NCBI RefSeq assembly: GCF_007197755.1
Contig: NZ_CP041636.1
Location: forward strand, 1,896,001 to 1,960,000
From: Ferrovibrio terrae
GTDB taxonomy: Bacteria > Pseudomonadota > Alphaproteobacteria > Ferrovibrionales > Ferrovibrionaceae
Direction of reading: 5' to 3'
DNA: 64,000 nt
Part shown: in pieces, positions 1,881-39,268 of the stretch
How positions within the stretch are numbered: the first letter of the stretch is position 1
Layout: each line of letters begins with the position of its first letter
Notes under the pieces: model-generated
Told to the model about the DNA's origin: nothing
The model's input: the letters and a program-made list of their open reading frames with translations, nothing else
Databases searched by the model: none
Made by a program: the position numbers and the translations under genes

Positions 1881-2911
1881 GCGGCGCGGACGGCAATTGG
1901 GCCGATAACTGGATGATTGCCGCAGCCGTGGCTGCCGGCACCGGGCTGTTCGTTTATCTGCTGCTGAAGCCGCTGATCGGCTGGCTGCATCGCCGCGCGA
2001 TCATGGACATCCCGAACGACCGCTCCAGCCATGTCGAACTGACGCCACGTGGCGGCGGCATCGCAACCACGGCCGGCATGCTGCTGGGGTTGGCAATTTG
2101 GATCACCCTGCGCCCGGATGCCACTGCGCCGCTGGTGCTGCTGGGCATGGCAGTGCTGGCAATGGTGTCCTGGCTGGATGATCGCAGTGGCGGACTGCCG
2201 GTCGGCGTCCGTCTTGGCGCGCAGGCTGTCAGCGTCGGCGTCGTGCTGGCGATGCTGCCGATGGAGGCGACGGTCACACAGGGACTCGCCCCCGCCTGGC
2301 TCGAACGTGTCGTGCTGTTCTTTGCCTGGATGTGGTTCACCAACCTGTTCAATTTCATGGACGGCATCAATGGCATCACCGGCGTTGAGATGGTGACGAT
2401 CGGCGCCGGCGCCGCATTGGTGGGCGGGATTTCCCAGACGGGGGGGGATGTAGAAGCATCCGGGCTGATCGTGGCGGCCGCGGCGCTGGGCTTCCTGCCG
2501 TGGAACTGGGGCAAGGCAAAAGTCTTCCTGGGCGATGTCGGCAGTATTCCGGCGGGCTACCTGCTCGGTGGCCTGCTGCTGGCCCTGGCGCTTTCAGGCC
2601 ACTGGGCTGCGGCGCTGATACTCCCAATGTATTACTGGGTCGACGCCACCTACACTTTGCTGCGCCGGCTGCTGCGCGGCGAAAAGGTCTGGCAGGCGCA
2701 TCGCAGCCATTTCTACCAGCAGGGCGCGCGCAAGCTGGGCAGTCATGCGGCCGTGGCAGTACGGATTGCCGCGCTGAACCTGCTGCTGGTCGTCCTTGCC
2801 GTGGCCAGCAGCCTGGGCTGGCAAATCGCCGTTGGCGCCATCGTGATTGCCATTGCGGCCACGATCACCCTTTGCAGGCATTTCGCGGAGCCGGTTCAAC
2901 CGTTAGGATGA
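1877..2911 (+). CDS. Undecaprenyl-phosphate sugar-1-phosphate transferase (WecA/WbpL family)
   Basis: 344 residues and strongly hydrophobic, with about ten membrane segments. Family landmarks are DIPNDRSSH near the N-terminus, SWLDDRSGG (the paired Asp motif), NLFNFMDGINGI, and KVFLGDVGSIPAGYLLG, with HRSHFYQQGARK near the end. The family transfers a sugar phosphate from UDP-sugar to undecaprenyl phosphate, the first committed step of O-antigen or capsule repeat synthesis. The GTG start overlaps the TGA of the GT4 gene by 4 bases, and the WbpM-like gene follows after 9 bases, so this is an operon. WbpL (FucNAc/QuiNAc transferase) is the closest named relative I would suggest, without certainty about substrate. 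Confidence 0.87.
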   Translation: MSGADGNWADNWMIAAAVAAGTGLFVYLLLKPLIGWLHRRAIMDIPNDRSSHVELTPRGGGIATTAGMLLGLAIWITLRPDATAPLVLLGMAVLAMVSWLDDRSGGLPVGVRLGAQAVSVGVVLAMLPMEATVTQGLAPAWLERVVLFFAWMWFTNLFNFMDGINGITGVEMVTIGAGAALVGGISQTGGDVEASGLIVAAAALGFLPWNWGKAKVFLGDVGSIPAGYLLGGLLLALALSGHWAAALILPMYYWVDATYTLLRRLLRGEKVWQAHRSHFYQQGARKLGSHAAVAVRIAALNLLLVVLAVASSLGWQIAVGAIVIAIAATITLCRHFAEPVQPLG

Positions 2912-2920
2912 CCGCCGCCC

Positions 2921-4885
2921 ATGAAAGACAAGCCGCGATTCGCCTTTTCCTTGCGCCTGAACCACCGCGTCCTGCTGGTGGCGGCGCATGACATCGTCAT
3001 GGCGGCAGTGTCGCTGCCGTTGGCGATCTGGCTGCGATTCTGGATTGTCGATATCGAATGGTCGCCGCTGGAAGCCTGGCTGCCGACCCTGATCTTTGCC
3101 GGCGTGGCCGGTGTGGTCTTCCAGTATACTGGACTCTATCGTGGCATCTGGCACTTCGCCTCGCTGCGCGACATGCTGGCGATCCTGCGCGGCAGCCTGC
3201 TGTCGCTGCTGATCTTCCTGCCGCTGCTGTTTGTCTTCACCCGCCTCGCCGACTACCCGCGCAGCGCGCTGGTGATGCAGTTCTTCATCCTGATGCTGCT
3301 GCTGGCGGGCCCACGCATCCTGTATCGCAGCTGGAAGGACGGCAGCCTGGCCACGGTGCTGTGGCGCGGCGACGACAAGCGGGTGCCGGTGGTGCTGATC
3401 GGTTCCAGCCTCGCCGCTGATACTTTCATCCGCGAGATGGAACGCGGTCCGGCCTCCTATCGCGTTGTCGGGATCATCGATGATTCAGCGGGCCGGCATG
3501 GTCGCGACATGCGTGGTATCCGCGTGCTCGGACGGCTGGCCGATTTGCCTGCCATCGTAAACAACATGCGCGAGATCGACCGGCCGCGTCGCGCCATCAT
3601 CGCCGATGACCGGCTGGATGGCCGCGTGATCCGCGAGCTGGTCGAGACCGCCTCGCAGTTCGGCATCAGTGTGGCACGACTGCCGCGCATGACCGAGTTC
3701 CGCAAGGAAAGCGAGGCGGGGCAAGTGCAGTCGATCGATGTGGAAGACCTGCTGGGCCGGCCGCAGCGCGTGCTGGATCGCAGCGCGGTGACGCAGCTGA
3801 TTGCCGGCCGTCGTGTCCTGGTCACCGGCGCTGGCGGCACCATCGGCTCCGAACTGGTGCGCCAGGTGGCAGCGCTGCAGCCAGCTGCCATCGTGCTGTT
3901 CGAGCAGAGCGAACACGCGCTCTATCAGATCGACATGGAATTGGCCGAGCGCATGCCGGAGCTGCCGCGCGTGGCCGTGCTGGGCGATGTGCGCGATGCC
4001 GATGCGGTGGAAACCGTCTTCGCGGCGCAGCGGCCCGATATCGTGCTGCATGCCGCGGCCTACAAACATGTGCCGCTGGTGGAAGCCAATGCCGGCGAAG
4101 GACTGCTGACCAATGTGCGCGGCACCCATGTTGTGGCGCAGGCCTGCCAGCGCCACAACGTCGCCGTGATGGTGATGATCTCCACCGACAAGGCGGTCAA
4201 TCCGACCAACGTGATGGGCGCCACCAAGCGTATCGCCGAGATGGTCTGCCAGAGCCTCGATCTCGAACGCGTCACCAGCCAGCGCAACTCGACCCAGTAT
4301 GTGACCGTGCGGTTCGGCAATGTGCTCGGCTCGTCGGGCTCGGTCGTGCCGCTGTTCCAGCGCCAGCTCGCCAGTGGCGGTCCGCTGACGGTGACGCATC
4401 CCGATGTCACGCGCTTCTTCATGACCACACGCGAGGCGGTCGAACTGATCCTGCAGGCCGCCGCCATGCCGAACGACGTGGTGCATGCCGAGGGCAAGAT
4501 TTTCGTGCTCGACATGGGTGAGCCGGTGCGCATCCAGGATCTGGCGCGCCAGATGATCCGGCTGACCGGCCGTCAGCCCGACAAGGATGTGAAGATCGTC
4601 TTCACCGGACTGCGGCCGGGCGAGAAGCTGTATGAAGAAGTGCTGCACAGCGCCGAGACCACCATGCCGACGCCGCAGGAAGGCGTGATGCTGGCGGCAC
4701 CGCGCATCATTGACCGCGCCGAACTCGAGCGTGCGATTGCCACGCTGATCCATCATGCCGAGCGGCGCGACACGGCGGCGGTGGTGGCCGGCATCGCCGC
4801 GCTGGTGCCAGAATTCGAACATGCACCGAACGGACAGGGCAGCAGCAGCGAGACTGCCGCGCCCGTGAATCGCCCCGCGGCTTGA
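2921..4885 (+). CDS. Membrane-bound nucleotide-sugar 4,6-dehydratase (WbpM/CapD family)
   Basis: 654 residues, the normal length for WbpM. The first ~150 residues hold four hydrophobic segments. A cytoplasmic linker follows, then the short-chain dehydrogenase module with VTGAGGTIGSELVRQ near residue 300, LHAAAYKHVPLVE, and STDKAVNPTNVMGATKR near 420-437. The last motif has Met in place of the usual catalytic Tyr, the Ser-Met-Lys arrangement known for WbpM-type enzymes. They convert UDP-GlcNAc to the 4-keto-6-deoxy intermediate for FucNAc/QuiNAc sugars. That fits the WbpL-like transferase directly upstream. The palindromic repeat begins 8 bases after the stop. Confidence 0.92.
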   Translation: MKDKPRFAFSLRLNHRVLLVAAHDIVMAAVSLPLAIWLRFWIVDIEWSPLEAWLPTLIFAGVAGVVFQYTGLYRGIWHFASLRDMLAILRGSLLSLLIFLPLLFVFTRLADYPRSALVMQFFILMLLLAGPRILYRSWKDGSLATVLWRGDDKRVPVVLIGSSLAADTFIREMERGPASYRVVGIIDDSAGRHGRDMRGIRVLGRLADLPAIVNNMREIDRPRRAIIADDRLDGRVIRELVETASQFGISVARLPRMTEFRKESEAGQVQSIDVEDLLGRPQRVLDRSAVTQLIAGRRVLVTGAGGTIGSELVRQVAALQPAAIVLFEQSEHALYQIDMELAERMPELPRVAVLGDVRDADAVETVFAAQRPDIVLHAAAYKHVPLVEANAGEGLLTNVRGTHVVAQACQRHNVAVMVMISTDKAVNPTNVMGATKRIAEMVCQSLDLERVTSQRNSTQYVTVRFGNVLGSSGSVVPLFQRQLASGGPLTVTHPDVTRFFMTTREAVELILQAAAMPNDVVHAEGKIFVLDMGEPVRIQDLARQMIRLTGRQPDKDVKIVFTGLRPGEKLYEEVLHSAETTMPTPQEGVMLAAPRIIDRAELERAIATLIHHAERRDTAAVVAGIAALVPEFEHAPNGQGSSSETAAPVNRPAA

Positions 4886-36916: not shown

Positions 36917-36959
36917 GGATTATTATCTAAATACTTTGAGCCACAGTTTGAAAGTAAAG

Positions 36960-37142
36960 CTATGCTTTCTTTCTCACTGGCTGATCAGTATGAGGCGAGC
37001 TATCGCGAAGCTTTCCAGAACTTCCAACCTCTATGGATCGAGCTTGATCTTTCATCCATTGAGGCCAGCTATCAAGCTCTTTTGAAACCTGGTCAAGTTG
37101 AGCTTTTAGCCACTCACTTCCAATCTTTGGCTTTTCGCTCAT
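36960..37142 (-). CDS. Small ORF coupled to the antiphage deaminase
   Basis: 60 residues, start ATG at 37142. GGAGGAG lies about 7 bases before the ATG, and the ATG shares its A with the deaminase TGA (TGATG), so translation is coupled. The product is charged and soluble: the first half (GSEWLKAQLDQVSKELDSW, then PQWMKDQARS) looks like amphipathic helix, and the tail is Lys/Arg-rich (PVRKKA). I do not recognise it. It could be a regulator, inhibitor or co-factor of the deaminase. Base composition matches the AT-rich insert, not the flanks. Confidence 0.6.
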   Translation of the reverse strand: MSEKPKIGSEWLKAQLDQVSKELDSWPQWMKDQARSIEVGSSGKLRDSSPHTDQPVRKKA

Positions 37143-38773
37143 CAGAGTTCTCCTCCAGCAGTCGCATGGCCGAAGCCTTTAGCTTCAAGCGTATTTCTGA
37201 GTGCCAACTTAGCCATCTGCTCAATGAAGATGTAGGAGGGGACTAACCGCTTTAACCGAGGAAGTGCGGCTGCGGGTTGCCATTCAACTGCATCTCCATT
37301 GTCTATTTTGCGTTTGGTTTTCTCAAACAAATCCATAAAACGGCCTGGAGCTATGCCAATAAAAGGATCAAACGTCACATGATCGGATTCTATTCCACTG
37401 TCAACGCGAATAGAATCCCTATAAAGGCCTTTTGCCATGCTTTTTGGGTAAGGCTCAATGTAGATCACCCTTTTAATTCCCGCCGCGACGATATGTCGTG
37501 CGCACATGTGACACGGGAAGGTTGTGCAGTAAAGCTTCGCTTCTTTTAAAGGGGTGCCTCTTCTGGCGGCATCGGTAATCGCCGCCATTTCGGCATGGAC
37601 AATTCGGCCAAACTCCAAAAGTTCGGAAATTCGTGTTCCTCGTAAAGGCCGAGCAGTTCCTCGAAGTGCTTGCTCAGCTAATTCAGCCGCATCTAGTTCG
37701 ACTTTTTCATCCGTTAGCCATTTAGATTCTTTCAAGCGCTGCAAGAGTTCTTGCAACAATATTTGTTTATTCTTGGCGCTAGAGTCGTAGCCAACTTTAA
37801 AGTCGCGAGCATCGTTATTGTCTCCATCCCAATACAGGCCACCGCCAAATTTTGGCACCTCATTGCAGCCTACGGATAGAAGGTCGCCATCTGTTGTGGT
37901 TATTGCCGCACCTACCTGCCTTGATAGATCAGCAGATCGCAGCGCGGTTGCTCGCGCATAAAACATCGCCAATTCATCTTTTGTCGGTGTGTGGAATGGA
38001 TGGCCAAAAATGAGTTCGACGAAGCGGCGCAAAGATTTTTCAACAGTGGCCTTCTCTGTCGCAACGATAAAAAGATCTGCAAGCGGGAAGGTATCTCTGA
38101 CTCGTTGTCCATACTCAACATTGGCCTCTTCTTCATCCCAAACGATCAGTTCCTCTGCTTTCGGTAAATACTCGTCGGACCCTGGAGGTTTGTGTCTGGA
38201 CTTTGCAATTTTCTCCGCCAGAGCGGATTTGCGGGAGTCTCTTGGGGCAGTCGCAGCGACAAGATAAAATGCGCGGCCATATATATTCCGTAAGACCTCA
38301 ACTTCCTCAGGGTGTTTTAACGACCGAATGATATAGGCTTGTCTTTTTGCAGGGCTGTTTGGATCTTGAGTCAGATTGGCGCGTTCAGCAGAAATCTTTG
38401 CCGAAGACAGTAATGCAAACAGGTCTTCGCCCAACTCTCCGCGCAGCCTCGTCCCAGCTTGCATATGTGTTGAATAGCGCTCGTCTTCCGGACCGGAAGT
38501 GGGGAGGTCGGAATCTAAGATGTGCATTAATTGGCTAATCTGCACTAAGCAGGTCTTGTAATTTACCCGGCCTAATTCTTCCTCAAGAACATGTGAGACC
38601 ATATTTAGATCGGTCCCAATTGGTCCGACTAAGCCAAATACCAGTTCGGGACCGGTTAACGGCTCGAGGCTTTTATGAGCAGTTTTCTGTTGTGGGGTGC
38701 GGGCAGCTTTATCTCGTGCCCGCTTTTCCGCGTGCTTAGTCTTTTTCGGAATTACTTTTGAGCGATTCGCCAT
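37142..38773 (-). CDS. Antiphage dCTP/dCMP deaminase (AvcD/DCD type)
   Basis: 543 residues from the ATG at 38773 (a GTG two codons earlier is possible). After a basic start, residues ~42-260 form a P-loop-NTPase-like domain beginning ELVFGLVGPIGTDL, a Gly-rich loop without the usual GK(S/T). The C-terminal half is a cytidine-deaminase fold with the zinc site HAE (His393, Glu395) in IVHAEMAAI and FPCHMCARHI (Cys421, Cys424). This NTPase-plus-deaminase layout and length match the AvcD family, which on phage infection deaminates dCTP/dCMP and starves phage replication of deoxycytidine nucleotides. The gene is markedly AT-rich (25 G+C in the 60 bases from 37681), which suggests transfer. Confidence 0.85.
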   Translation of the reverse strand: MANRSKVIPKKTKHAEKRARDKAARTPQQKTAHKSLEPLTGPELVFGLVGPIGTDLNMVSHVLEEELGRVNYKTCLVQISQLMHILDSDLPTSGPEDERYSTHMQAGTRLRGELGEDLFALLSSAKISAERANLTQDPNSPAKRQAYIIRSLKHPEEVEVLRNIYGRAFYLVAATAPRDSRKSALAEKIAKSRHKPPGSDEYLPKAEELIVWDEEEANVEYGQRVRDTFPLADLFIVATEKATVEKSLRRFVELIFGHPFHTPTKDELAMFYARATALRSADLSRQVGAAITTTDGDLLSVGCNEVPKFGGGLYWDGDNNDARDFKVGYDSSAKNKQILLQELLQRLKESKWLTDEKVELDAAELAEQALRGTARPLRGTRISELLEFGRIVHAEMAAITDAARRGTPLKEAKLYCTTFPCHMCARHIVAAGIKRVIYIEPYPKSMAKGLYRDSIRVDSGIESDHVTFDPFIGIAPGRFMDLFEKTKRKIDNGDAVEWQPAAALPRLKRLVPSYIFIEQMAKLALRNTLEAKGFGHATAGGEL

Positions 38774-38866
38774 CCCCACCCAGCCCGATTCGCGAGGTGG
38801 AGATTAGCAGGAATTTTACACCTGACGTTAATTGAAGTGCGACATAATATGGTACTCGGGTAACCA

Positions 38867-39268
38867 TCAGCCCTTGCCCTCGCCGCCGATGCGGCCGTAG
38901 CGGTCTTCCTTCGGCTTGGCGGTCGGGCGCAGCGGACCACCCTGCGGATCGCACAGGCCTTCGGGCAGCTCGCGGTCATTTACGAAATCGTCGTGATGCT
39001 CGGCGGCGAACTGGTCGTTGCCATAGGTGCCGGGTCCGACGCGTTCCTGCTGCGGCGAATGCTTCACCAGCGGTTCGGTATGCAGCGGCCCGCTGCCGCG
39101 GCCGTGATCGCCGGGCTCCAGCGTGAACTGCTGCTGCGGCTGCACGGTCTGCGGCTTTTCCCTGCTGGGCGGATCGCCGATGGGCTTTTTGTAATCGGGC
39201 GTGTCGCCGGGCACCTTGTCCTTTGGTGCCTTGTCGTCGGGCGGGGTCTGCGGTTTCGGCTCTGACAT
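38867..39268 (-). CDS. Uncharacterised proline-rich, probably disordered protein
   Basis: 133 residues from the ATG at 39268, with AGGAGG about 10 bases upstream. The sequence is Pro, Lys, Asp, Gly and Gln-rich (for example PPDDKAPKDKVPGDTPDYKK) and nearly lacks hydrophobic clusters, so it is probably unstructured and cytoplasmic. The C-terminal half has DQFAAEHHDDFVNDRELPEGL and RYGRIGGEGKG. I recognise no family. It is GC-rich like the chromosome and marks the right edge of the AT-rich insert. A good ribosome-binding site supports it as real. Confidence 0.6.
   Translation of the reverse strand: MSEPKPQTPPDDKAPKDKVPGDTPDYKKPIGDPPSREKPQTVQPQQQFTLEPGDHGRGSGPLHTEPLVKHSPQQERVGPGTYGNDQFAAEHHDDFVNDRELPEGLCDPQGGPLRPTAKPKEDRYGRIGGEGKG

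Follow-up and report, generated by a model that had tools for sequence, protein, structure and literature searches.

A translationally coupled small protein gene beside an AvcD-type anti-phage deaminase in Ferrovibrio terrae, a candidate proteic antitoxin

The PADLOC and DefenseFinder schemes for dCTP deaminase defence list a single gene, and, to our knowledge, RNA is the only described regulator of dCTP/dCMP deaminases. A different kind of comparison is offered by the HigBA-like type II toxin–antitoxin pairs, where the toxin gene comes first. Among the closest described systems is also AvcID from Vibrio and E. coli, a type III toxin–antitoxin system consisting of the deaminase AvcD and the AvcI RNA. 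AvcI is a noncoding RNA encoded upstream of or adjacent to avcD; it is labile and restrains AvcD, a toxic enzyme that depletes dC nucleotides and is released once the phage stops host transcription (PMC10511110, PMC9455884). Rifampicin elicits a response of AvcID, whereas spectinomycin does not, nor does it lower the level of AvcI (PMC10511110). All statements on AvcI are drawn from PMC10511110, PMC9455884, and PMC12409362.

The window, i.e., the whole stretch of 64,000 nucleotides that was analysed (positions 1896001-1960000 of a genome that is complete in one contig of 4.26 Mb), holds an ordinary deaminase with an unusual, apparently undescribed protein partner. The features of the locus are the following:

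36919..38870, minus strand: cassette of the deaminase and the small ORF only (comparison with two congeneric genomes)
37142..38773, minus strand: AvcD-type anti-phage dCTP/dCMP deaminase, 543 aa (NF041025, PADLOC, alignment, AF2/Foldseek)
36960..37142, minus strand: 60-aa partner ORF of the DS family (ORF reading, profiles, pN/pS)
37150..37156, minus strand: ribosome-binding site GGAGGAG, within the 3' end of the deaminase gene, 7 nt before the small-ORF ATG
38774..38866, minus strand: 93-nt gap 5' of the deaminase, presumed promoter region (ORF coordinates, fold and Rfam tests)

Like AvcID, this locus combines a deaminase of the NF041025/PADLOC dCTPase type with an adjacent small regulator gene. 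Unlike AvcID, its candidate regulator is a protein, encoded 3' of the deaminase gene and coupled to it in translation, and an upstream AvcI-like RNA is not apparent. The deaminase is the same as in the one-gene defence systems, to which the unit in the window adds a conserved second gene. The HigBA-like pairs share with it the arrangement of two overlapping genes, an enzyme and then a small helical protein; here, however, the enzyme is a nucleotide deaminase, the small protein bears no recognisable DNA-binding domain, and neutralisation is a putative role.

The deaminase matches NF041025 (NCBIfam 'anti-phage dCTP deaminase') over its full length with 462 bits, for a curated cut-off of 400, and the PADLOC dCTPase profile with 541 bits. 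The zinc-site residues H393 and E395 (H393-A-E395), and C421 and C424 (C421-x-x-C424), are invariant in a 35-row alignment, with the HAE and PCxxC motifs intact; the N-terminal domain holds a degenerate P-loop (GLVGPIGTDLN) lacking the Walker A lysine. The AlphaFold2 model (pLDDT 89, pTM 0.85) combines an N-terminal domain of the P-loop-kinase-like type with a C-terminal dCMP-deaminase domain, and Foldseek relates it to dCMP deaminases and adenylate-kinase-like proteins. Judged from its profiles and motifs, the enzyme is a bona fide AvcD-type deaminase with an intact active site.

The small ORF (P0001) comprises 60 codons, and its product is MSEKPKIGSEWLKAQLDQVSKELDSWPQWMKDQARSIEVGSSGKLRDSSPHTDQPVRKKA. 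Its ATG (37142-37140) shares one base with the TGA stop codon of the deaminase (37144-37142; cTGATGag). The sequence-only reading had given the position of the ORF, the TGATG overlap, and the GGAGGAG site correctly, and the strand, left unstated there, is minus; it had also considered the ORF very likely translated, in agreement with its translation signals, its same-place homologues, and a pN well below pS. Pairwise Nei-Gojobori counts from protein-guided alignments, which favour low pN somewhat and most strongly in very divergent pairs, gave a pooled pN of 0.25 and pS of 0.59 for the DS small ORFs (Fisher p 1e-12), 0.24 and 0.72 for the divergent ones (DIV; p 1e-50), and 0.28 and 0.47 for those upstream (US; p 2e-4). 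The close pairs L003/L004, L150/L153, and L155/L156 also exhibit pN below pS. As far as codon patterns can tell, the small ORF is a real protein-coding gene under purifying selection, so that the refuting pattern named in the sequence-only reading is not seen, and the small proteins diverge faster than their deaminases.

No family match was found for P0001 at E <= 1 in Pfam, NCBIfam, PADLOC, or PHROGs, and none against plasmids when it was searched alone; its sole phage match (33%, E 0.8) was dismissed as chance. A core-profile scan in all frames yielded no natural fusion between the small protein and a deaminase. The AlphaFold2 model of the protein, computed with 18 relatives, contains two helices (residues 9-25 and 28-40) separated by a break at W26-P27, with pLDDT values of 91-92 over residues 11-30, whereas the tail (residues 41-60) is of low confidence and predicted to be disordered.

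A scan of genome contigs provided 66 deaminase loci, and the reading of each of them revealed short ORFs 3' of the deaminase with the common pattern L..Q...A..E...W..WK; about 13 of the 66 had no convincing small-ORF candidate or were cut by the contig end. Fourteen of the 3' small ORFs were used to build the profile A2, which was run on 289 class genomes regardless of deaminases. Self-matches aside, two matches were strong (2.6e-9 and 7.6e-9; next best 0.007), and each directly follows an AvcD-type deaminase gene on its 3' side. An 18-row profile run on 299 phylum genomes retrieved, beyond the window, two weak fragments (3e-4, within a 319-aa frame, and 0.004), and no convincing match of the small family away from a deaminase appeared across the 588 genome scans. 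Members outside the training set were also found in place: L172 on a faecal scaffold of phage-like character (2e-5), L165 on a plasmid of Vibrio nigripulchritudo (7e-4), and L174 in a genome of the phylum (2e-3). Several related deaminases, such as L007, L148, and a 9-row clade, have no recognisable small ORF. Further 3' small ORFs, with a start like 'K..QL.L.L', stand beside the distant deaminases L124, L134, and L135 and are unlinked to the DS profile.

The two genes also move together. Together they make up roughly 2 kb of AT-rich DNA, with 46-53% GC compared to 62-69% around it, and in two congeneric genomes (L184 and L185) the flanking genes are kept, at 84-87% DNA identity, while the segment 36919-38870 is replaced. 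In L185, the cargo (2145-3400) encodes an HTH protein (HTH_66) and a PIN_10/DUF5615 protein and resembles a toxin–antitoxin system; in L184 (34-1497), it is an unclassified 290-aa ORF, the distal side being weaker here because the flank matches over 33 bases at the locus end. What is exchanged at this site in the window is limited to the deaminase and the small ORF. The site, bordered by a GST-like gene and a minus-strand ORF of 132 aa, is an exchange hotspot, with three cargoes in three congeners.

Since translation signals, conservation beside relatives, purifying selection, and the exchanged two-gene cassette coincide, the designation of the small ORF as a partner of the deaminase, with which the sequence-only reading had associated it, is well founded. 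The more specific roles suggested there, as a regulator, antitoxin-like partner, or phage sensor, are putative. As in a type II pair, the small gene is consistently paired with its enzyme, and the conservation beside deaminase homologues that this reading had proposed to look for exists as a same-place family in many relatives. These small and fast-evolving proteins, encoded beside AvcD-type deaminases in many bacteria, apparently form a set that had not been described before; a search of the literature other than the primary Nat Microbiol 2022 papers on AvcID and dCTP deaminases found no paper on a protein partner.

On the 5' side of the deaminase, the neighbouring gene is a minus-strand ORF with its stop at 38867, so that the figure of 93 bases given in the sequence-only reading is correct; as far as testable, no obvious AvcI-like RNA lies upstream, where that reading had seen little room for one. 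The RNA fold of the gap is not unusual (z = -0.30), the gap has no match in Rfam, and a search for sigma-70 promoters and terminators found nothing better than in shuffles. An unstructured or short RNA regulator may be present within the transcript.

Where a 3' ORF is lacking, the deaminase mostly comes from a single clade, in which a divergent gene of 50-80 aa lies on the opposite strand, 5' of the deaminase. Most of these divergent small genes are covered by five profiles (D1-D5), and in one Pararhizobium plasmid record the gene is annotated as a hypothetical protein. At 114 loci, every match with E < 1e-3 falls in one of the two expected places, and the sole match flagged as off-position (L159) is the expected divergent gene inside a longer open frame. 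Viral contigs were scanned with the deaminase, and D1, D2, or D3, whose seed profiles do not include them, match at 12 of the 17 viral-contig loci, some of these contigs duplicating genome loci. The D1 profile produced two weak matches in 289 genomes. DS and D1 are probably homologous in part, according to HHalign (E 2.3e-5, probability 76%). A single family uniting US, D2, D3, and D4 with DS is not claimed, since HHalign detects no relationship of these four to DS. At a Methylobacterium locus (L034, about 2923-4565), the reading frame of the deaminase is broken within the first third of the gene, and the divergent small ORF is intact and resembles the DS family (E 0.007).

In a FastTree tree of 122 deaminases, the divergent arrangement sits in a supported clade, of which it makes up 49 of 55 rows; the upstream arrangement sits in another (8 of 12 rows), and the 3' arrangement, that of the window included, among the remaining branches. 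For loci without profile support, the arrangement was assigned by eye, from position and ribosome-binding site, which makes these labels softer. The position of the gene follows the tree of the enzyme, with two changes among DS, DIV, and US.

The upstream arrangement is seen with deaminases of Gammaproteobacteria, encoded on plasmids or in genomes (Photobacterium, Vibrio coralliilyticus, E. coli, Klebsiella, and others), which have a same-strand upstream ORF of 56-74 aa whose C-terminus, A..(I/L)(I/L)..(A/S).K(I/L).W-stop, is kept in most loci. At L121, L123, L167, L168, L170, L171, L175, and L179, this ORF, with the W-stop end and pN below pS, occupies the published position of the AvcI RNA. 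L168 and L170, plasmids of 4.6 kb from E. coli and Klebsiella pneumoniae, carry hardly any cargo besides the deaminase and the upstream ORF; matches came from 25 Klebsiella plasmid records. The chromosomal deaminases of E. coli near an integrase and yjjG (L176-L178) are preceded by a different 61-aa ORF (MNVIAF...) without the W-stop end. Protein coding at the gammaproteobacterial AvcI place, matched to AvcI by position, is offered as a lead only. With low probability, AvcD-type deaminases might in general be governed by dedicated small proteins, whose gene would have shifted among three positions (3'-coupled, divergent 5', and same-strand 5', the last including the gammaproteobacterial AvcI place), in which case the locus of the RNA antitoxin would encode a protein in addition to, or in place of, the RNA.

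The 60-aa protein is considered the dedicated partner of the deaminase and, on balance, most likely its proteic antitoxin, a labile inhibitor that would be the counterpart of AvcI. With little room upstream, neither a structured nor an Rfam RNA in the gap, and a paired protein instead, the simplest reading would be that the protein does the job of AvcI. According to this model, the small protein would be made from the deaminase mRNA through translational coupling and would bind the enzyme, probably via conserved positions in helix 1 (L12, A19, and W26) and at the beginning of helix 2, keeping it inactive. Upon infection, the phage would shut down or redirect host gene expression, and the small, partly disordered protein would be lost faster than the enzyme. 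The freed deaminase would then convert dCTP/dCMP into dUTP/dUMP, starving phage DNA synthesis. Binding, inhibition, lability, and trigger are proposed by analogy with AvcI, together with the obligate pairing, the small size, and the fast evolution of the protein. Purifying selection combined with an evolution faster than that of the enzyme fits the expectation for an inhibitor, and the presence of a divergent small gene of its own at nearly every sister-clade deaminase also speaks for an antitoxin. Against it, the toxin-first order is the less common one among protein antitoxins, several related deaminases lack a recognisable small ORF, and homology among all three arrangements is not demonstrable, with the link limited to DS and D1. 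Confidence is further limited because the same pattern in the genomes would be expected of an activator, sensor, co-factor, or assembly factor.

Among these, an activator, phage sensor, or adaptor appears unlikely. In such a case, the deaminase would be silent by default, e.g., by allosteric nucleotide control via its P-loop-like domain, and the partner would sense a phage product or recruit the enzyme. The fast evolution and the many divergent families would suit an arms race, and obligate pairing fits equally well, but in the only lineage studied AvcD depends on an inhibitor (PMC10511110, PMC9455884), and a protein of 60 aa with a 20-aa low-confidence tail offers little sensing surface. The translational coupling at DS loci would also ensure the stoichiometric co-translation of a structural subunit or a folding/assembly helper devoid of regulatory role. 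This explanation is distinctly improbable, given that divergent transcription in 49 of the 55 sister-clade rows is ill-suited to a stoichiometric subunit and that the AvcD of Vibrio reportedly functions with nothing but an RNA inhibitor (PMC10511110).

Control by RNA as in AvcID, the ORF being a by-product of the regulatory transcript or lying inside it, would agree with the description of AvcI as noncoding (PMC10511110) and with the gammaproteobacterial ORFs in the AvcI position. However, pN is well below pS in all three arrangements, the profiles match at the protein level, and the 93-nt gap lacks a stable fold, which leaves this reading with little probability. Finally, a chance ORF or functionless remnant is scarcely credible, since, despite its short length and the lack of matches in Pfam, NCBIfam, PADLOC, and PHROGs, the ORF has same-place homologues, is under purifying selection, and belongs to a two-gene cassette.

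A conserved protein partner alters what must be cloned to test defence by dCTP/dCMP deaminases, and provides a handle on how the enzyme stays off and how phages trigger it. If the partner is indeed a protein inhibitor, a block of translation, and not only of transcription, should activate the enzyme, unlike in AvcID.
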